IMG/VR virus record: IMGVR_UViG_3300042566_000315
Span: 1-20,088 of that record
Strand: one strand, 5' to 3'
Length of the DNA stretch: 20,088 nucleotides
Source of the DNA: a virus
Both the position numbers and the translations under genes were made by a program. The notes beneath the pieces were generated by a model that searched no databases, was not told the DNA's origin, and worked only from the letters and a program-made list of their open reading frames with translations. This document shows positions 2,964-19,035 of this stretch, one piece after another; position 1 is the stretch's first letter, and the number at the start of each line of letters is the position of its first letter.

Positions 2964-3452
2964 ATGGCCGATTTATTAATGAAAATGCCGACACCTTACG
3001 AACCAAAAAGGACTAACCGATTTATCGTAAGATTTGACTCGTCTTTGGGTATAAACGAATGGTTTATATCTGCAGCAGCTAGACCAAGTGCAAAAATCGC
3101 ATCAGTTGCAATTCCTTTCTTAAACACTTCAACATATGTTGCAGGTAGATTTGAGTGGGAAGAAATTAAAGTAACATTTAGAGACCCAATCGGTCCTTCT
3201 GCTTCACAAGCTTTAATGGAATGGTTCCGTTTACATGCTGAATCTGTTACAGGTCGTATGGGTTATGCTGCGGGTTATAAAAAAGACGTAGAATTAGAAA
3301 TGTTAGATCCAACAGGAGTTGTAGTTGAAAAATGGTTATTAGAAAACTGTTTCTTAACTAACTTAAACTTTGGTGATTTAGATTACAATAGAGATGAATT
3401 AGCAAATATATCATGTTCATTGAGAATGGATAAATGTATTTTAATTTACTAA
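2964..3452 (+). CDS. gp19: Tail tube protein (T4 gp19-like)
   Basis: This 162-residue protein is the subunit that polymerises into the inner tail tube through which DNA is ejected. Its size equals that of T4 gp19 (163 residues). The N-terminal NRFIVRF strand, the central FEWEEIKVTFRDPIGPSASQ segment and the late ENCFLTNLNFGDLDY-type strand are the usual order in gp19-family tubes, which form a six-subunit ring of beta-sandwich domains. The start at ATG 2964 has an A-rich leader and no Shine-Dalgarno sequence. The gene sits between two terminators, so it is probably transcribed on its own at a high level, as fits a protein needed in well over a hundred copies per virion. The call is firm. Confidence 0.94.
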   Translation: MADLLMKMPTPYEPKRTNRFIVRFDSSLGINEWFISAAARPSAKIASVAIPFLNTSTYVAGRFEWEEIKVTFRDPIGPSASQALMEWFRLHAESVTGRMGYAAGYKKDVELEMLDPTGVVVEKWLLENCFLTNLNFGDLDYNRDELANISCSLRMDKCILIY

Positions 3453-3555: not shown

Positions 3556-4305
3556 ATGGAAGACTATAAAATTGACCCCACAATCGCCTATGATGTGATT
3601 GAATTACCGAGTAGAGGTATACATTATACAAGTAAAAGAAAATCTGTTAGAATCGCGTATTTAACCGCGTCAGACGAGAACATTCTTTCGTCACCTAGTT
3701 TTCTTAACACAAATACAGTAATTACTGAATTATTAAAAAGAAAAATATTAGATAGAGATTTACCAATTGATGAAATAGTAGAAGAGGATAGACAAGCAAT
3801 CTTAATATTTTTAAGAAATACGGCTTTTGGTTCCGAATATACAATTACAACCGTAGATCCAAAAACAAATCAAGAATTTGATGTAGTAGTAAATTTAGAA
3901 TCATTAAAATTAAAAGATTTTAATTTATCAGAAAATTCCGAAGGTGAATATACATATTATTTAGAAAAAAGTAAAACAGACATCACATTCAAATTTTTAA
4001 CACAAAAACAGGAAAGTGAAATTAATAAAATAAAAGAAAGTTGGAACGGAAATGGTGTTGCACCAATTGTAACAAAACAACTTGAAATGATGATTAAATC
4101 TGTTGGTGATATTAGAGAGGCAATGAAAATCAGAAGTTTTATTGAAATGATGCCAATTAAAGATTCCCAAGATTTTAGAAAATTTGTACAAGATAATAAA
4201 CCAGGGTTAGATTTAACCCAACCAGTAACAACCCCATCAGGAGATACAATCCAAGTTAATATTGGATTTGGGGTAGAATTTTTTCGCCCTTTCTACGGAT
4301 TATAA
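3556..4305 (+). CDS. Baseplate hub assembly / tail assembly chaperone-like protein (T4 gp26/gp51 family)
   Basis: This 249-residue protein shows the pattern of the T4 baseplate family that includes gp26 and gp51 (Pfam T4_baseplate, by recollection): an N-terminal IELPSRGIHY, then VRIAYLTASDENILSSPS, then RKILDRDLPIDEIVEEDRQAILIFLRNTAFGSEY, then a TDP-like DPKTNQEFDVVVNLESL segment. In T4 these proteins act in hub assembly. Its place between tube and tape measure is also the place of tail assembly chaperones in many phages, which escort the tape measure. The zero frame ends only six codons after a TTT TTT CGC run (RPFYGL, then TAA at 4303-4305). A conserved-looking extension lies in the +1 frame (see 4286-4438), so this entry is probably the short form of two products. 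Forty-three bases separate it from the preceding terminator. Confidence 0.8.
   Translation: MEDYKIDPTIAYDVIELPSRGIHYTSKRKSVRIAYLTASDENILSSPSFLNTNTVITELLKRKILDRDLPIDEIVEEDRQAILIFLRNTAFGSEYTITTVDPKTNQEFDVVVNLESLKLKDFNLSENSEGEYTYYLEKSKTDITFKFLTQKQESEINKIKESWNGNGVAPIVTKQLEMMIKSVGDIREAMKIRSFIEMMPIKDSQDFRKFVQDNKPGLDLTQPVTTPSGDTIQVNIGFGVEFFRPFYGL
4279..4287 (+). promoter_or_regulatory. Candidate +1 ribosomal frameshift site TTT_TTT_CGC
   Basis: Codons 242-244 of the gp26-like gene read TTT TTT CGC. A tRNA-Phe on the second TTT (4282-4284) can move forward one base to TTC (4283-4285), a better match for its GAA anticodon, while the ribosome waits at CGC. By hand scan, this is the only in-frame CGC arginine codon in all the genes of the window. 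UUU_CGN is the same arrangement used for +1 shifting in influenza PA-X. The shift skips the stop at 4303-4305 and continues for 50 codons. A -2 shift on the T run would reach the same frame. Inferred from sequence only. Confidence 0.65.
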
Positions 4306-4438
4306 AAAAGGACAATTAGACGAAATTTTATTTTTAGTTAAAAAAGGATTCTCATATGGGGATATTTTAACTATGCCAATTTATTTAAGAAGATATTACG
4401 TTAGATATATAATCGATTTGGAAAATATTGAACAGTAG
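4286..4438 (+). CDS. +1-frame C-terminal extension of the gp26-like protein
   Basis: This segment encodes 50 residues in the +1 frame relative to the upstream gene. The frame opens after a TAG at 4274-4276 and ends at TAG 4436-4438. It looks like real protein: ALSTDYKKGQLDEILFLVKK followed by GFSYGDILTMPIYLRRYYVR, a helical region with the F-Y-x-D-I-x-x-MP-x-x-x-RR-x-Y pattern that I associate with C-terminal parts of tail/baseplate assembly proteins. No ATG, GTG or TTG lies near its beginning (the first ATG is at 4373, leaving only 21 residues), so separate translation is unlikely. With a shift at TTT_CGC, the product would be 293 residues: 243 zero-frame plus these 50. The alternatives are a true single-base change that split a fused gene, or a sequencing/assembly error. 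Only 11 bases then remain before the tape measure gene. Confidence 0.7.
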   Translation, partial: ALSTDYKKGQLDEILFLVKKGFSYGDILTMPIYLRRYYVRYIIDLENIEQ

Positions 4439-4449: not shown

Positions 4450-6372
4450 ATGGCAGTAGATTTAGCAACATACGCAAAAAACCACAGTTTATCTGAATTT
4501 GAAAAAGAATGGTGTAAACAAGTAACACCACCAATAACGTATGCAAATATGACTCCGAATGATCATACCAACGCAGCGGCAGCATATAATGCTTACAAGG
4601 GTGCGGGTACTAGTTCAACAGCATTGTCCGCACCTAGAGATTTTAATATTCAAAGTGTATTGACGGCCGGAGCAAATACTAAATCCACATTATCAGAAAC
4701 AACGGAAAAATATCTAACACCATTACAGTTAATGGATAAAAAAATATTAGGTGAAGAGATTTTAAAACAAATTGAAAGAGAATCTCAATTACATACTGAT
4801 ATTAATGAAAAAATGGGTATTTCGGGTGAATTATCCAGATCTTATAGAGATTCAATTATTGAAACGGTTCCACATGCGGTTAGATTAGGATTTGATATTA
4901 AAAATTTAACCGACTTAACAACAAAATTAGCGGAAGGTTCTGGTAAGTTTAATTTAATATCACAAGATACAATGGAAAAAACCGTTGTAACAACAAGAGC
5001 GTTTGGAACCACAATGGCGGAAATGGCGGGTACTATGGTTGAATTTGAAAAAATTGGTCTTGGTCAATCTGATACATTGGCTAAAATTAATGATGCAGGT
5101 AAAACATCGATGGCGTTAGGATTAAATTCTAAAAATGTAATTAAAGACTTACAATCTAATTTATCAAATTTAAACCAATATGGTTTTAAGAACGGTGTTG
5201 AGGGTTTAACTAGAATGGCTCAAAAAGCAACGGAATTTAGGATGGCCATGAGTGAAACATTTAAGTTAGCTGAAAAAGTTATGAATCCCGAATCTGCGAT
5301 TGAATTGACGGCAAATATGCAAATGTTAGGTGGTGCGGTGGGTGACCTTAATGATCCGTTAAAATTAATGTATATGGCCACTAATAACGTAGAAGGATTA
5401 CAAGATGCGTTACACGGTGCTGCTGCGGGTTTAGCAACATATAACAAAGAACAAGGAAGATTTGAATTAGTTGGTGCAAACTTAAGAAGAGCACAAGAAA
5501 TGGCTAAACAATTGGGAGTTGATTATAAAGAGTTTGCTAAGGGAGCAATTGCCGCAAACGAGAGAATATTGGCAGGAGAACAATTAGCGGCAAAGGGTTT
5601 TGATATAGATGATAAAGATAAGGAATTTTTAACCAACATGTCTCAAATGAAGGGAGGTGAAATGCAAATCACCATTCCACAATCATTAATGGATACTTTT
5701 GGTAAAGAATTTAATAATAAAACTGAAGTTAAATTATCTGAATTAAACTCTAATCAAGTTGCAATTTTAAAAGCAAATAGAGAAAAACTTGAGGAAATGA
5801 ATCCTGAGGATATAGCAAAAGGACAATTCACATCGTTAAAAAACTCTGAAAATTATTTAAAAAGTATGGCTGCTGAGGTGGTACAAGGAGGTAAAAATAG
5901 AATTGTGGGTAGAAATGAATATACAGGAGATAAATCAAAAGAAAGAGGTGCCGTTAATTTAGAAACTATTGGAAAAGGAATGTCAAATATTACGGATATA
6001 GGATCTAAAGAAGTTTTATTAGGTATTGAAAACAATGCAATAAAAGCAATTAATGTGATTACCAACACAGTACAAAAAGTTTTTGAAGCCGGAGCCAAAT
6101 ATCTAACTGGTGGTGAAACAGATCCTGAAAAATTGCAAAAAAAGATAGAAGGGTATTACAAAAAGTTAAACATGTTAGATGGAGGTGATATAGATAAAGT
6201 AAACGCAGAAAATGAAAGATTAAAAAAATGGTACCAAGAGGGTAATGGTAAAAATCAAATAGTAACATTTAATAATAATCTTAAAGTAACTCATTTAGGT
6301 TTAGGTAATAATATGACAATAGACCAAACGGAGAAAGGTTATTTAACACCTACAACCAATAATTACGTTTAA
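4450..6372 (+). CDS. Tail tape measure protein
   Basis: A 640-residue, strongly helical protein rich in Ala, Lys, Glu and Met, without cysteine clusters or clear membrane segments. It is the only long helical gene after the tube and the assembly gene, which is the standard place for a tape measure. Residues about 75-330 have the recurring form of phage tape measures: helices of the type LIISQDTMEKTVVTTRAFGT-like, then SAIELTANMQMLGGAVGDLN and NNVEGLQDALHGAAAGLATY. The size is close to T4 gp29 (590 residues). At about 1.5 angstrom per residue, it would specify a tail of roughly 95 nm; this is an estimate from the general rule. The protein fills the tube lumen during assembly and is ejected with the DNA. 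I find no CGN arginine codons in the gene. The start at 4450 is the first ATG, but a start at 4549 (MTPNDHTN) cannot be excluded. Confidence 0.8.
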   Translation: MAVDLATYAKNHSLSEFEKEWCKQVTPPITYANMTPNDHTNAAAAYNAYKGAGTSSTALSAPRDFNIQSVLTAGANTKSTLSETTEKYLTPLQLMDKKILGEEILKQIERESQLHTDINEKMGISGELSRSYRDSIIETVPHAVRLGFDIKNLTDLTTKLAEGSGKFNLISQDTMEKTVVTTRAFGTTMAEMAGTMVEFEKIGLGQSDTLAKINDAGKTSMALGLNSKNVIKDLQSNLSNLNQYGFKNGVEGLTRMAQKATEFRMAMSETFKLAEKVMNPESAIELTANMQMLGGAVGDLNDPLKLMYMATNNVEGLQDALHGAAAGLATYNKEQGRFELVGANLRRAQEMAKQLGVDYKEFAKGAIAANERILAGEQLAAKGFDIDDKDKEFLTNMSQMKGGEMQITIPQSLMDTFGKEFNNKTEVKLSELNSNQVAILKANREKLEEMNPEDIAKGQFTSLKNSENYLKSMAAEVVQGGKNRIVGRNEYTGDKSKERGAVNLETIGKGMSNITDIGSKEVLLGIENNAIKAINVITNTVQKVFEAGAKYLTGGETDPEKLQKKIEGYYKKLNMLDGGDIDKVNAENERLKKWYQEGNGKNQIVTFNNNLKVTHLGLGNNMTIDQTEKGYLTPTTNNYV

Positions 6373-6424: not shown

Positions 6425-9400
6425 ATGCCATTAGATTTTAACACTACTAAAGATTTTAGGGATAAAATGTTAAATAGGACATTAAATCCTGTTTACGGAA
6501 GAAGTCCGTCCCCAAAAACTTTCACAAGTTCAAATTATAGTGTTCGAAATTTAGGAGACAGTCCAAATTTATTATTACCTGATGTTGACGATGATAGAGC
6601 CAATGATTTATTAACACCAAAAAAGTTTAATGTATTTAAACCAAATGAATACTTAGTAAAAGATTCATTTCAAGATATACCAAGAAGAGCAAATTTAAAT
6701 TTATATCCGTATTTCACACAAAGTGATAATAATTTAATTGGTATCATGTTAACAAGAAACTATGATACAGAATCCGAATTATTTAAATTTGCGGCAAATA
6801 ATATTAGAACAAACCCACAAGGACCTGTATTATCAAGAATAAGTCAAAACCTTAACACGAATATAAATGCCAAAAATAAGATAGGTGAGGCGTTAGCTGG
6901 TAATACAAATACACTAATTAATATCATTAGAGGTAAACAACCTTTAATTGAAGGTAATAATAGAATTACCGTATCAAGTAGTTTAGTAGGTAAAGGATTT
7001 GATTTTTTGGGAACTGTGGCGGGGGTAGAATTACCATTCAGTACAATACCGGGAGATTATTTAACAAATCCTCGTAATCCGATTAATATTAGACCTACTA
7101 GTGTTTCTACGGCGACTAAAGTTTGGCAAGATTTAACAGGTGTTTTAGGGTCAGTAGTGGGTATTGAAAGAAGACCACTACCATCAAGAAAACCATCCGA
7201 CATATTAATTGAACATATGGGTAGTTCATCAAAAAATAGACTTTTTGATTTATTATCATATTCAAAATATGCACCTGATTATACAACGACGGCGAGATCA
7301 CAAATGTCCACAGGTTTAGGTAGAATTCCTAGTCAAATAGCACAAGGTGTTAAATCACTTTTAGGTATGGAGGCACCAAAAAGTGGTGCGTATATTGGAG
7401 ACGACAGAGAAAACAATGTAAAACAAGCAACAAAAGATTTATTTAGTGGTAGACCTATCAGGAGTAGTTATTATCTAACACTTATGTTTGATAAAGTTTC
7501 GGCCGAATTATTTCATAGTACTAAAAATATTATTGAAAAGGGGCCGATTGGTGGTAATTTAACATGGATTAGTAAAAACAAAACAACTAAGGATGTTAAT
7601 ACAGATAGTATAAAAGATAGTTTATCTACAAAATTTGGATTTAGACAAGGATCAATATTAAATATAACACAAGATATATTAGATTCTAAACCACAAAATG
7701 GTGGAGATTCATTGGCACATATTGGACATATATTAGATCAAACAAGTAGGTACTTTAAAGATGGGGATACCCTAATATCAAGAGGTTCTGCGGTACGTTA
7801 TATTGATAACTCGGGTAAAGATATTGGTGTCGAATATGCTAGGGTATGGACTAAAGATAGACCTTATTTTAGATATAGTGACAGTATGCCACTTTATAAA
7901 GAAACAACAAAAAAACCATATTATAGTGGTGGAACAACCCCTTATAGAAGAACAGGAATTAGAAAATTTGACGGTAGTGTAATGACAAATACGTGGAATT
8001 TGAATATTGCTCCAATGTCAAATGGTACGACAGGTGAAGATGCTTTTAGGAACTCATCAAACATTTTTGAAAAAACAACAGGTAACTTTTATGCTAAAAA
8101 GTATATGTTATCTATAGAAAATTTAGCATGGGCCTCATCTACATTACCTGGATTTACCGTTAACGATTTACCTTATTCAGAAAGAGGACCAAACGGAGGT
8201 CGAGTTATGTGGTTTCCACCATATGATTTAAAAGTTTCCGAACAAAATAGTGCTAAATGGGAACCTAACACATTTTTAGGTAGACCTGAACCAATTTACA
8301 CATATCAAAATACCGAAAGAAGTGGACAGTTATCTTTTAAAGTAGTTGTCGATCATCCAAGTATTTTAAATCTATTAATTAGAGAACATTTCAAATCAGT
8401 TAATGATACTGATGTTGATACATTTATAACATCCTTTTTTGCGGGTGCAAAAGATATTGATTTTTATAGTTTAATTAGACAATATGCTAATTTAAATGAG
8501 GATGATTTAACAATGGTTAAAAACTATTTAAATAATGGTGGAGACACTAGTGATATAAAAAGACGATTAAACCCATTAAATTCACCTGTTGAAAATAATC
8601 CAGGTGGAACAAATACAAATGATGCAAATAAAGAAAACGTAAATACAAAATTAACGTTAAATTTTTCACATAACGTTCCACCACCAGAAGGACAACTCTA
8701 CATTTCATCTGCAAATTATGGGTCAATTATTAAAAGAATTTTAGAACCAGAAAATTTAGTAAATATTAAAAATACATTAAGAGAATCATTAATTAAATCT
8801 ATAATAGATAAAGATAATGATTGTAAAGTAATTTTTGGAACTACTGATATTCCATCGGCACAATCCGGTGATACTGTAAATAAAAAAATTACCGAATTTG
8901 AAAGTATTTTTACTGAATTACAAACAAGTTATGATAAATTAAAAGATAGTTTATCAAGTCTAAAATTAGACTTAAACAATAAAAATATTGGTAGTGATAT
9001 TGTAGTTCTAATAGATTCACACACCTCAAAAATGGGTGATATAAATCACAATTTTAACTTATCAATGAGAAGATCACATTCAATATTTTTATATATTCTT
9101 GAAGGTATTAAAAAAGATGGTACTAATATCGATGCTAATAAATGGAAATTTAAAAATTTAGAATCTTTTACATCTTCATCATCGGGAATGGAAAAATTTC
9201 CAATAGAAGTATCATACTCACTTAAAGAATTAGGATATGATGGTGAAGATAAAAATATAATTTTTAGAACAATAAATTACGGTTCTACAAATAACGGTGA
9301 AAATTCTCTTTGTAATGGAAGTGGTTATACCGACCCAACGTTAACAAACTATGCACCAAATACTTACGGTTGTCGAGCTTCAAATTTAAGTATTGATTAT

Positions 9401-11164
9401 GATAAAACTAAAAAAGTAGATAAACCATCTAATGTTTCAGTAAAGAATTCACTTTCACCCACTGGTAATATTCCAAGTAATAATACCAAACCACCAATAG
9501 ACTTAATGAAAAGAATTATAATGAAAACATTATCCGAAGATTATTACTTTAAGAAATTAGAGGAAACTTCACCAATGATTTATAGTTCATTAAAGGAAAA
9601 ATTAAAATATTTTCATCCTGGTTTTCACTCAATGACACCCGAAGGATTAAACTCACGTTTAACTTTTTTACAACAATGTTTAAGACCGGGTAATACTATA
9701 CCAATAAAAGGATTATCAGATAATTCAGACTTAAATGCTAGAAATACAACATTTGGACCACCACCCGTTTGTGTATTAAGAGTAGGTGATTTTTATAATT
9801 CAAAAGTTGTTATAAGAGACCTTAATATACAATTTGAACAAAATGTATGGGACATGAATCCAGAAGGTATTGGTATTCAACCAATGATTGCGGAAGTTAC
9901 AATGCAATTAAATTTTATAGGTGGTCAAGGATTAGAAAAACCTGTGGAAAGATTACAAAATGCATTATCATCTAATTTCTTTGCAAATACCGAAATGTAC
10001 GACGAAAGAGCAATATCAACAAACACAAAAATTGGAGGTAAGGATGCAAATGAATTCACAAAAGAATTTATACAAAGTATAAATGACACATATATACCAA
10101 AAACAGGATTAAAAGATAGTAATGGTAAGGATTTTGTTGAAGGACAATATATTGGTACGATTAATACTAATGATAAAACAATAGATTATACTACACTAGT
10201 TGGTGACGTTTATAAAAATGTTGAACCATATTTTAGTTCATATCAGAATATGTATAATAATTTATCATCCATATATGGTCATAAAATAACTAATTTAATT
10301 GTAAATAAAACAGAAAGAACAAATAACAAATACAATGTTTATTCCAGTACCGGCACACCAACTCAAATATTATTATTCGGAAATTTTAAAGAAAGTGCAC
10401 CTTTATCAAAATCAATGGAACAATTAACAAATAGATTCCAAATTTATTTAGAATTAAAAAGGGAAACCGACGAATATTATCTATTAAAATTATTAAAAAT
10501 AGACGATGTAATTACTGATAATTTAAAAGACTATTATAACGACGGTTTATACAATCATTTTCATGATAATTTTGACGACAAAGTTAACGATATTTCAACT
10601 TTAAAAATAGTAAAAGATTATGAAGAAATTCGTAATAAAATGACTAATAGTTTAGATAAGTTAAATACTGTTATTAAAAATAATTCAGATTATAAAATTG
10701 TTAAAAATAAAACATATAAATTAACCTTTACAGGAGATACTTCAACAATGTATAATGAATATAAAACATGTATTGATTATATAAAAAATAATGAAAGTAA
10801 AATGTATAGTAAATTAGACACCGCATTATCACAAGCATTTAATGATGATACGTTAAAAGATGTAATTTATTCTTTGTTTAATAATGATTATAAAGTTGCG
10901 TTAGAAAATATCGAGAGTCAATTTGACATGGGAAGTAAAGAAAATGAAAAAGTTGCAACTAAAGTAGAAAATAAATTAAGTAATAATTTTTATGAAACAA
11001 AGGAAACCAATATGAAATTTGGAAAAGCACCTTCAATTAAAAATACAAAAACCTTATCATTTACATATACAGGTGAAATTTTGGATGAAAATGAAGATAT
11101 TAAAAAACTTTATTCGGCACAATATAAACCATCGGATGATACATTAAATTATTATAAAATATGA
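6425..11164 (+). CDS. Very large baseplate structural protein with OmpA-like segment
   Basis: This 1579-residue protein lies directly after the tape measure, where genes for the tube cap and the central baseplate usually are. Three regions are recognisable. Around residues 563-650 is a beta-rich segment (SIENLAWASSTLPGF, GGRVMWFPPYDLKVSEQ, GRPEPIYTYQNTERSGQLSF, KVVVDHPSIL). Around 855-895 is an OmpA/MotB-like peptidoglycan-binding segment (IVVLIDSHTSKMGD, then FNLSMRRSHSIFLYIL), in the order expected for that fold. Around 1108-1200 is a second beta-rich segment (GPPPVCVLRVGDFYNSKVVI, VWDMNPEGIGIQPMIAEVTM), similar to tube-like baseplate domains that form rings below the tube. The C-terminal ~370 residues are Asn/Lys-rich and unplaced. 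The stop overlaps the next start as ATGA. The baseplate assignment is good from context; equating it with T4 gp48 or gp54 is not justified from sequence alone. Confidence 0.65.
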   Translation: MPLDFNTTKDFRDKMLNRTLNPVYGRSPSPKTFTSSNYSVRNLGDSPNLLLPDVDDDRANDLLTPKKFNVFKPNEYLVKDSFQDIPRRANLNLYPYFTQSDNNLIGIMLTRNYDTESELFKFAANNIRTNPQGPVLSRISQNLNTNINAKNKIGEALAGNTNTLINIIRGKQPLIEGNNRITVSSSLVGKGFDFLGTVAGVELPFSTIPGDYLTNPRNPINIRPTSVSTATKVWQDLTGVLGSVVGIERRPLPSRKPSDILIEHMGSSSKNRLFDLLSYSKYAPDYTTTARSQMSTGLGRIPSQIAQGVKSLLGMEAPKSGAYIGDDRENNVKQATKDLFSGRPIRSSYYLTLMFDKVSAELFHSTKNIIEKGPIGGNLTWISKNKTTKDVNTDSIKDSLSTKFGFRQGSILNITQDILDSKPQNGGDSLAHIGHILDQTSRYFKDGDTLISRGSAVRYIDNSGKDIGVEYARVWTKDRPYFRYSDSMPLYKETTKKPYYSGGTTPYRRTGIRKFDGSVMTNTWNLNIAPMSNGTTGEDAFRNSSNIFEKTTGNFYAKKYMLSIENLAWASSTLPGFTVNDLPYSERGPNGGRVMWFPPYDLKVSEQNSAKWEPNTFLGRPEPIYTYQNTERSGQLSFKVVVDHPSILNLLIREHFKSVNDTDVDTFITSFFAGAKDIDFYSLIRQYANLNEDDLTMVKNYLNNGGDTSDIKRRLNPLNSPVENNPGGTNTNDANKENVNTKLTLNFSHNVPPPEGQLYISSANYGSIIKRILEPENLVNIKNTLRESLIKSIIDKDNDCKVIFGTTDIPSAQSGDTVNKKITEFESIFTELQTSYDKLKDSLSSLKLDLNNKNIGSDIVVLIDSHTSKMGDINHNFNLSMRRSHSIFLYILEGIKKDGTNIDANKWKFKNLESFTSSSSGMEKFPIEVSYSLKELGYDGEDKNIIFRTINYGSTNNGENSLCNGSGYTDPTLTNYAPNTYGCRASNLSIDYDKTKKVDKPSNVSVKNSLSPTGNIPSNNTKPPIDLMKRIIMKTLSEDYYFKKLEETSPMIYSSLKEKLKYFHPGFHSMTPEGLNSRLTFLQQCLRPGNTIPIKGLSDNSDLNARNTTFGPPPVCVLRVGDFYNSKVVIRDLNIQFEQNVWDMNPEGIGIQPMIAEVTMQLNFIGGQGLEKPVERLQNALSSNFFANTEMYDERAISTNTKIGGKDANEFTKEFIQSINDTYIPKTGLKDSNGKDFVEGQYIGTINTNDKTIDYTTLVGDVYKNVEPYFSSYQNMYNNLSSIYGHKITNLIVNKTERTNNKYNVYSSTGTPTQILLFGNFKESAPLSKSMEQLTNRFQIYLELKRETDEYYLLKLLKIDDVITDNLKDYYNDGLYNHFHDNFDDKVNDISTLKIVKDYEEIRNKMTNSLDKLNTVIKNNSDYKIVKNKTYKLTFTGDTSTMYNEYKTCIDYIKNNESKMYSKLDTALSQAFNDDTLKDVIYSLFNNDYKVALENIESQFDMGSKENEKVATKVENKLSNNFYETKETNMKFGKAPSIKNTKTLSFTYTGEILDENEDIKKLYSAQYKPSDDTLNYYKI

Positions 11165-17606: not shown

Positions 17607-18299
17607 ATGTTAGAGAAAAAATTATTAGAAGAAGTAAAACGTTTCAATGCTATCAACAAGTATAGTAAGAAAATGATTATGGAGCAAGATGCTCCCCCAC
17701 CTCCACCGGTAGATGATGCTGCGGGTGATGTTCCTCCTCCACCTCCAGCGGGTGATATGGGTGCACCAACAGATGTTCCACCTCCACCACCAGCTGGTGA
17801 TATGGGTGGCGAAGCACCTCCACCTCCGGGTGATGAAATGGGTGCAACCCCAATGGACGATCCAATTGGCGGTGATACAGAAGAGATTGATATTACAGAT
17901 TTAGTTAATATGACTAAGAATATCAAAAACGATCTTGAAAATAATAAACAAGACAATTCTGCGGTTATTAATAAAATGGATGACGTATTCACTAAATTGA
18001 ATGATTTAGAAAGTAAGTTAGCTCAAATGGATCAAGTTATGGCTAAGATTGATCAATTAGGTGCAACAGTTGAGGCTAATAAACCTAAAAGTGAAGTTGA
18101 GAAATTGGAAATGAGATCTTTGGATTCATATCCGTTTAACGAAAAACCACAAGAGTTTTTTGCTCACAAACAAGGTGAAATGAGAGCAAGTGGTAAGAAT
18201 GAATATGTATTAACTAAGGATGATGTTGAAAATTACCCTGTTGACCAAATAAGATCATCATTTAACCAAGAAGATCAAAAAGATGAATATAGCTTCTAA
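17607..18299 (+). CDS. Proline-rich, acidic coiled-coil protein (probable virion-associated)
   Basis: A 230-residue protein with four parts. Residues 1-26 are a basic helix (MLEKKLLEEVKRFNAINKYS). Residues 28-90 are low complexity, with four PPPP(P) blocks separated by acidic Gly/Asp/Met linkers, including two copies of DVPPPPPAGDMG. Residues 92-160 form a probable coiled coil with heptad leucines, isoleucines and methionines (DVFTKLNDLESKLAQMDQVM). The C-terminal ~60 residues include a globular-looking piece (SLDSYPFNEKPQEFFAHKQG) and an acidic end. No enzyme motif is present. The layout suggests a scaffold, linker or oligomerising structural protein; the operon position after the hub supports this, but the function is unknown. 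It overlaps the next gene by 17 bases. Confidence 0.7.
   Translation: MLEKKLLEEVKRFNAINKYSKKMIMEQDAPPPPPVDDAAGDVPPPPPAGDMGAPTDVPPPPPAGDMGGEAPPPPGDEMGATPMDDPIGGDTEEIDITDLVNMTKNIKNDLENNKQDNSAVINKMDDVFTKLNDLESKLAQMDQVMAKIDQLGATVEANKPKSEVEKLEMRSLDSYPFNEKPQEFFAHKQGEMRASGKNEYVLTKDDVENYPVDQIRSSFNQEDQKDEYSF
17727..17807 (+). repeat. Imperfect 36-bp repeat encoding DVPPPPPAGDMG
   Basis: Two in-frame 36-bp units (17727-17762 and 17772-17807) encode the same 12 residues. They differ only at a few third codon positions, so the DNA is drifting while the protein repeat is kept. Looser copies of the proline block flank them. Confidence 0.8.
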
Positions 18300-18669: not shown

Positions 18670-19035
18670 ATGATATCAGGTTCAGTAGCAAAAACAAGTT
18701 CAGATACCACCACAGGTTCGTTATCTTACATAAATAACTTAGTGACGGGAGCAACATCCTCAGGTTCATATTATATTTCAGTATCTAACAGATACATGAA
18801 TAATACAATGGCAACTTTATTGAGATCTTATGGTTATCGTGTAACTACTAAGAACGATCATATGGGAACCAATAATGATTATGTAATTACTTGGGGTAGT
18901 ATTTTAGACCCAACCCCAACTCCAACAGCTACCCCAACCCCAACAGCAACCGTAGTACCAACAGCAACACCTTCACCTACGGCAACACCGGTTCCACCAA
19001 CAGCAACACCTTCACCCACGGCAACACCAATTTAA
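18670..19035 (+). CDS. Small protein with Pro/Thr/Ala repeat tail
   Basis: A 121-residue protein in two parts. Residues 1-80 are a small Ser/Thr-rich domain with the compact motif YYISVSNRYMNNTMATLLRS then YGYRVTTKNDHMGTNNDYVI, which looks like a short alpha/beta fold; I cannot name a family. Residues 81-121 consist almost only of Pro, Thr, Ala, Ser and Val (PTPTPTATPTPTATVVPTAT and further copies), a mucin-like extended tail. There is no signal peptide or membrane segment. Such tails suit a surface-displayed virion protein or a flexible linker and could be glycosylated; this is an inference. It is the last gene before a terminator. The C-rich codons of the tail contrast with the AT-rich surroundings. 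Confidence 0.72.
   Translation: MISGSVAKTSSDTTTGSLSYINNLVTGATSSGSYYISVSNRYMNNTMATLLRSYGYRVTTKNDHMGTNNDYVITWGSILDPTPTPTATPTPTATVVPTATPSPTATPVPPTATPSPTATPI
18958..19028 (+). repeat. Tandem 39-bp repeat in the Pro/Thr tail
   Basis: A 32-bp stretch (CCAACAGCAACACCTTCACC and the next 12 bases) at 18958-18989 recurs at 18997-19028 with one T/C difference. The period is 39 bp (13 codons). The near identity at the DNA level suggests recent duplication by slippage or recombination. Confidence 0.85.

Follow-up and report, generated by a model that had tools for sequence, protein, structure and literature searches.

One gene, two products: a highly probable programmed +1 frameshift behind an RNA hairpin in a T4-type gp26/gp51-family gene

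The window, by which we mean the whole stretch of 20,088 nucleotides of viral DNA analysed here, encodes a gp26/gp51-family protein whose gene is flanked by a gp19-type tail tube gene on the 5' side and by a gene at the tape-measure position on the 3' side (Table 1), the gene position typical of G/GT-type tail assembly chaperones. The frame-0 protein belongs to the T4_baseplate family (34.9 bits with PF12322, the curated cutoff being 24.5) and matches phrog_150 with E=5e-12. The 640-residue product of the 3' neighbour did not match any family in Pfam or the PHROG profiles; in Flavobacterium phage immuto the next large gene is annotated as tail tape measure protein. Based on family and position, the gp26/gp51-family gene probably encodes a chaperone. 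Its 3' end reads GAA TTT TTT CGC CCT TTC TAC GGA TTA TAA, so that the frame-0 protein ends with EFF-RPFYGL. In the +1 frame an extension opens with GCC CTT TCT, and the fused protein would have 293 residues; it matches phrog_150 with E=4.7e-13. The +1 frame is closed by a TAG at 4274, just 5' of the slip site, and the earliest ATG, GTG, or TTG after this stop is the ATG at 4373, which leaves the first 29 residues of the extension without a start codon. Re-translation reproduced the coordinates, the frames, and both protein lengths (249 and 293 residues) given in the initial annotation, as well as its statement that the extension has no usable start of its own. Further downstream, positions 6425-11164 of the window encode a tail protein of 1579 residues in which residues 836-893 weakly resemble OmpA (E 0.006, below the cutoff), and the proteins encoded at 17607-18299 and 18670-19035 contain stretches of proline (PPPPP) and of repeated Thr-Pro (TPTPTATPT).

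Table 1. Features at and around the gp26/gp51-family gene of the window
Feature	Position	Strand	Evidence or remark
Tail tube gene, gp19-type	2964..3452	+	5' neighbour; phrog_4542 E=1e-27
Short form, gp26/gp51 family (PF12322 T4_baseplate, phrog_150)	3556..4305	+	Frame-0 gene, 249 aa
Conserved 5' RNA stem-loop	4231..4274	+	Fold -14.6 kcal/mol, synonymous-codon null, covariation
Hairpin P1, ACCCCA/UGGGGU	4231-4236/4269-4274	+	Outer stem
Constant 5' bulge of the hairpin, UCAGGAGAUAC	4237-4247	+	Contains UCAGGAG
Hairpin P2	4248-4254/4262-4268	+	Inner stem
Spacer AGAATTT	4275..4281	+	7 nt, hairpin to P-site codon
Candidate slip site TTT_CGC	4282..4287	+	P-site TTT, A-site CGC; TTT_CGN in 75/75 representatives
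Putative +1-frame extension, ALSTDYKKGQLDEILFLVKKGFSYGDILTMPIYLRRYYVRYIIDLENIEQ	4286..4435	+	50 codons; pN/pS and translation
TAG, +1-frame stop	4436..4438	+	
640-aa protein at tape-measure position	4450..6372	+	3' neighbour; named by position and analogy to immuto

Among the 6293 in-frame codons of the window CGC is used only once, at 4285, exactly as had been claimed from a scan by hand, and TTT_CGN appears in frame only as TTT 4282_CGC. The arginine codons of the window genes are AGA (164), CGT (28), AGG (17), CGA (5), CGC (1), and CGG (1), and a P-site UUU is thus combined with an A-site CGN that is rare in this genome. Homologous loci were collected with the frame-0 protein alone, the extension not being part of the query. 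This resulted in 161 loci including the window, of which 156 could be evaluated, while five, mostly at contig ends, have no readable site or extension (one of these, L061, has a stop inside the extension). All evaluable loci (156/156), which represent 111 distinct fused proteins with identities down to about 40%, combine TTT_CGN with 46-64 residues of open +1 frame. Because the loci were found through the frame-0 protein only and nevertheless all retain both features, their combination is not a matter of chance. A conserved shift site near the 3' end that provides a C-terminal extension is also what characterises G/GT-type genes. In the Pseudomonas QdP_Psa3 match (H3) a clear +1 extension was not seen. 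Past the frame-0 stop the extension shows a pS of 0.61 and a pN of 0.15 in the +1 frame (pN/pS 0.243), compared to ratios of 1.11 and 2.40 in the other frames. In the 75 representatives, the set below 85% identity, the P-site codon is invariably TTT and the A-site arginine is invariably encoded by CGN, whereas elsewhere in the same genes CGN accounts for only 64 of 675 arginine codons (9.5%) and AGA/AGG for 611. The A-site codon is followed by CCT or CCC in 73 of the 75. Over the 111 distinct relatives all four A-site codons are found (CGT 45, CGC 41, CGG 22, CGA 3). The sequences are related and such counts are not independent events, although the alternatives are excluded many times over.

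A comparable architecture is present outside the clade of the window. Loci similar to that of Microcystis phage Mel-JY01 (67 distinct) have TTT_TGG in 64 cases and TTT_TAC in one, followed by extensions of 65-99 residues with a pN/pS of 0.24. A like layout is also found in the isolates Flavobacterium phage immuto (TTT_CTT), Rhodothermus RM378 (TTT_TGG), Bacillus SP-15 (TTT_CAC), and Streptococcus SagM-GXN1 (TTT_CGT), and in the metagenomic LR756508 (TTT_CTA). In all these groups UUU is always followed by C or U, and the shifted codon would therefore always encode phenylalanine. The Mel-JY01 clade and the isolates with their other A-site codons seem to represent an independent recurrence of the architecture. 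Most sequences are metagenomic contigs, and one might suspect an indel introduced by assembly or sequencing, or a pseudogene in decay. The probability of this is negligible: the architecture is found in isolates and in 111 distinct proteins that come from a large number of samples, and the extension is under strong purifying selection, so that a pseudogene is already refuted by the conservation. An indel error is excluded because numerous independent metagenomes show this architecture, as do the second clade and isolates with other A-site codons.

The initial annotation had overlooked a covarying RNA hairpin 5' of the slip site as well as the gp26/gp51 relationship treated below. Compared to synonymous recodings of the same protein, the 54-nt hairpin region of the 75 representatives folds with a mean z of -2.31, 80% of the sequences being below -1.5, while control parts of the same gene give values of -0.2 to -0.5. 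Exchanging the 3' arms between sequences makes the fold less stable, with -15.1 kcal/mol for native and -12.3 kcal/mol for chimeric arms. Ungapped RNAalifold recovered only the outer CCCC/GGGG stem because sub-clades differ by one or two positions in the register of the inner stem, and register-free tests were therefore used. When the arms were dealt to other sequences and the register was chosen anew, the inner stem formed 5.86 pairs per sequence (maximum of 200 null sets 6.19), compared to 7.27 with the native arms. At one position of the inner stem CG, GC, TA, and AT pairs all occur, and in three sequences the outer stem shows a double change from C-G to A-T. The glycine codon at position -4 is GGG in 72 of the 75 representatives compared to a background of 9%. 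The sub-clade L112-L115 departs from the CCCC/GGGG pairing; L112 has a compensated GGGCACC/GGTGCCC helix, and no pairing is apparent in L114 and L115. Nor is the hairpin universal, since the Mel-JY01 clade has only a weak one and the cyanophages have none. A conserved structure 3' of the site was not found (z +1.07 in the window; RNAalifold), and a search of Rfam with the RNA element gave no match. Stimulation by a Shine-Dalgarno-like element is conceivable, although the AGGAG in the hairpin bulge is located about 40 nt upstream and beyond the known spacing. Judged by the comparison of the sequences, the slip site, the +1 extension, and the hairpin are all demonstrably under strong selection, and we infer that the hairpin stimulates the +1 slip.

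Ribosomes that shifted by -2 at this position would enter the same frame as well, but with one more residue (EFFFALST). There is a precedent for such a shift in phage Mu (PMC5009743), and the TTT TTT C of most members would permit re-pairing two bases back. Transcriptional slippage on the run of Ts, six or seven bases long in most members, could likewise open the extension if one U were lost in some of the mRNAs. Both fit poorly because members without the T-run, TTC TTT CGN or AAC TTT CTA, keep the site. Five members with TTC TTT CGN (L004, L009, L077, L096, L134) as well as L083 (AAC TTT CTA) and L086 (AGC TTT CTT) lack the upstream Ts needed for a -2 shift but retain UUU_Y and the extension, and we consider this shift improbable. 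Slippage of the polymerase seems more improbable still, given that the run is reduced to only three Ts in several members with intact architecture, and it would leave both the restriction of the A site to CGN and the 5' hairpin unexplained. It is similarly hard to imagine that the extension forms a gene in its own right, with initiation at a start codon of its own or through coupling to frame-0 termination. Although 86 of the 111 relatives have an ATG, GTG, or TTG in the +1 frame by residue 12 of the extension, mostly inside the frame-0 gene, and short ORFs starting with ATG exist in the related phages Cygsa01 and S-SCSM1, 25 of the 111 do not have any such start. In the window itself the TAG at 4274 is not followed by a start before 4373, and the constraints on UUU_CGN and on the hairpin would again be left unexplained.

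The comparative evidence therefore favours the slip site, the +1 direction, the two-product outcome, and the tail-chaperone context proposed in the initial annotation, and one gene very probably yields, by programmed +1 frameshifting, two forms of a T4-type tail or hub assembly chaperone, one short and one long. Translating ribosomes would melt the hairpin, which would refold behind them at the moment when peptidyl-tRNA-Phe is located on UUU and the slowly read CGN is in the A site. The pause together with the forward push might then allow tRNA-Phe to re-pair on the overlapping UUC, and translation would resume with the +1-frame codon GCC. The majority of ribosomes would terminate six codons past CGC and release the gp26-like protein of 249 residues, while a minority fraction would synthesise the form of 293 residues, whose added helices may be the counterpart of those at the C-terminus of T4 gp51. 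The two forms are likely to function ahead of or in the course of hub, tape measure, and tube assembly, in analogy to lambda gpG and gpGT. In T4 the same two forms would be supplied by two genes.

Adding the extension shifts the end of the phrog_150 match from 233 to 264 of 282 profile positions and increases the score from 46.8 to 50.2 bits; T4 gp51 spans positions 13-280 of the same profile. A direct hhalign comparison of the extension of the window clade with gp51 is weak (E 0.009). In profile comparisons the extensions of the window clade match those of the Mel-JY01 clade (E 2e-19), the latter match those of the cyanophages (E 8e-6), and the cyanophage extension matches the C-terminus of gp51 (E 5e-9). 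Homology between the extension of the window and gp51 is thus suggested by the intermediate clades together with the PHROG profile. For structure prediction the fused protein of the relative L108, read with one four-letter step, was modelled in place of the window protein. The AlphaFold models have a pLDDT of 82 for the fused relative and of 90 for a T4-like gp51, and they show a matching order of elements when the element lists are compared (the models were not superposed). The last helices comprise residues 247-262, 267-272, and 275-289 in the fused relative and residues 208-221, 226-230, and 234-248 in the T4-like gp51. The reach of the PHROG match and the order of the elements in the models both indicate that the long form contains the C-terminal helical segment of gp51. 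T4-like baseplate hub proteins are among the best viral structure matches of the fused model. Sequence and fold searches of the PDB did not reveal a significant match, and comparison with the HK97 chaperone (2ob9) was not significant either (E=1.3, prob 0.38).

Concerning known systems, the lambda-type G/GT genes (HK97 gp13, P2, and others) share with the window the gene position between tube and tape measure, a shift near the 3' end, a short and a C-terminally extended product, and a wide conservation. However, they use a -1 shift and belong to another sequence family, whereas the shift proposed here is in +1 direction with a hairpin at the 5' side. The -1 heptamer X_XXY_YYZ of the G/GT type is accordingly not found in the +1-shifting window clade but is present in the cyanophage relatives. 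The initial annotation had regarded a +1 shift on UUU_CGN in this family as not described. For the motif alone this does not hold. TTT-CGC had been proposed in 2020 as a +1 site for the tail chaperone of the HF1-group haloviruses (PMC7230728), and the +1 site of influenza A PA-X is UCC_UUU_CGU (PMC3498833). The HF1-group site resembles that of the window in slip motif, gene position, and direction, but these are archaeal viruses, and the passage on this chaperone gene in PMC7230728 mentions no RNA structure. Homology of the HF2 chaperone to the gp26/gp51 family was considered as well and is not supported by Pfam or PHROGs: the protein belongs to phrog_14268/12163 and does not match PF12322. 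PA-X shares the P-site UUU, which re-pairs to UUC, and the rare A-site CGN, but it is encoded by an unrelated gene of a eukaryotic virus, and the covarying 5' stem-loop is a feature of the window clade. Among the published open-access papers covered by the search we did not find one that ties gp26 or gp51 to frameshifting. Within the literature searched, the use of UUU_CGN for a +1 shift in the T4 family, the hairpin, and the link to gp26/gp51 therefore appear to be new, while the motif itself is not wholly new. Examples of this mechanism are few, and the locus would contribute a strongly supported phage case, a +1 frameshift accompanied by a covarying RNA element on its upstream side.

T4 gp26 and gp51 are hub assembly chaperones, and gp51 is essential but of unknown function (PMC3004832). 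They share PF12322 and phrog_150 with the protein of the window and likewise form a pair of a short protein without (gp26) and a long protein with the C-terminal helices (gp51), but are encoded by two genes and do not depend on a frameshift. Two phrog_150 genes are present in T4 and Aeromonas phage 31, and one each in eight large window relatives, Mel-JY01, and immuto. In 80 marine cyanophage-like loci (L298-L377, e.g. L299) gp26 ends with TTT TTC near the stop, and a perfect U_UUU_UUC is spanned by an open -1 frame that encodes about 60 further residues (pN/pS 0.16). Marine cyanophage gp26 is thus likely subject to a -1 programmed frameshift, apparently unannotated, with the short annotated 'gp51' as the extension. 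This 'gp51', like the extension of the window, is a short C-terminal segment straight after gp26, although reached by -1 at U_UUU_UUC instead of +1. Cyanophage gp51 has been described to lack the first ~200 residues of T4 gp51 and to have ~20% of its length (Sullivan et al., PMC3037559), which a frameshift extension of gp26 would explain. In the region of S-PM2 examined, gp26 was not contained.

The frameshift of the G-T genes has been called conserved 'except T4' (PMC5009743). It is quite probable that the T4-type phages are no exception to the short and long pairs of tail chaperones but have found several solutions within the family: a +1 shift with 5' hairpin in the window clade, a +1 shift at UUU_UGG in the Mel-JY01 clade, a -1 shift at U_UUU_UUC in marine cyanophages, a small separate ORF, and two genes (26 and 51) in T4, whose essential gp51 would be the GT-like form. 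The existence of two sister genes in T4 may be explained by the one-gene frameshift pair of its relatives. This provides a testable answer to the questions why T4 seemed to be without the widespread G/GT frameshift, what the essential gp51 is (PMC3004832), and why gp51 of cyanophages is oddly short. Single phages show further arrangements. In Vibrio phage Bakedbeans (L255 3670-3850) the extension is in the -1 frame at T_TTT_TTC, and in Pseudomonas phage Cygsa01 (L256 3300-3482) the gp26 stop is overlapped by a separate ORF (TAATG). S-SCSM1 (L254 3665-3874) has kept U_UUU_UUC, but the gp51-like segment has its own ATG and occupies the +1 frame; either bases were inserted past the site or the sequence is in error there. 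In the huge phage LR756511 (L090 2250-2480) the gp26-like gene has an arginine-rich tail, and the gp51-like segment is located in the -1 (+2) frame and has its own ATG.
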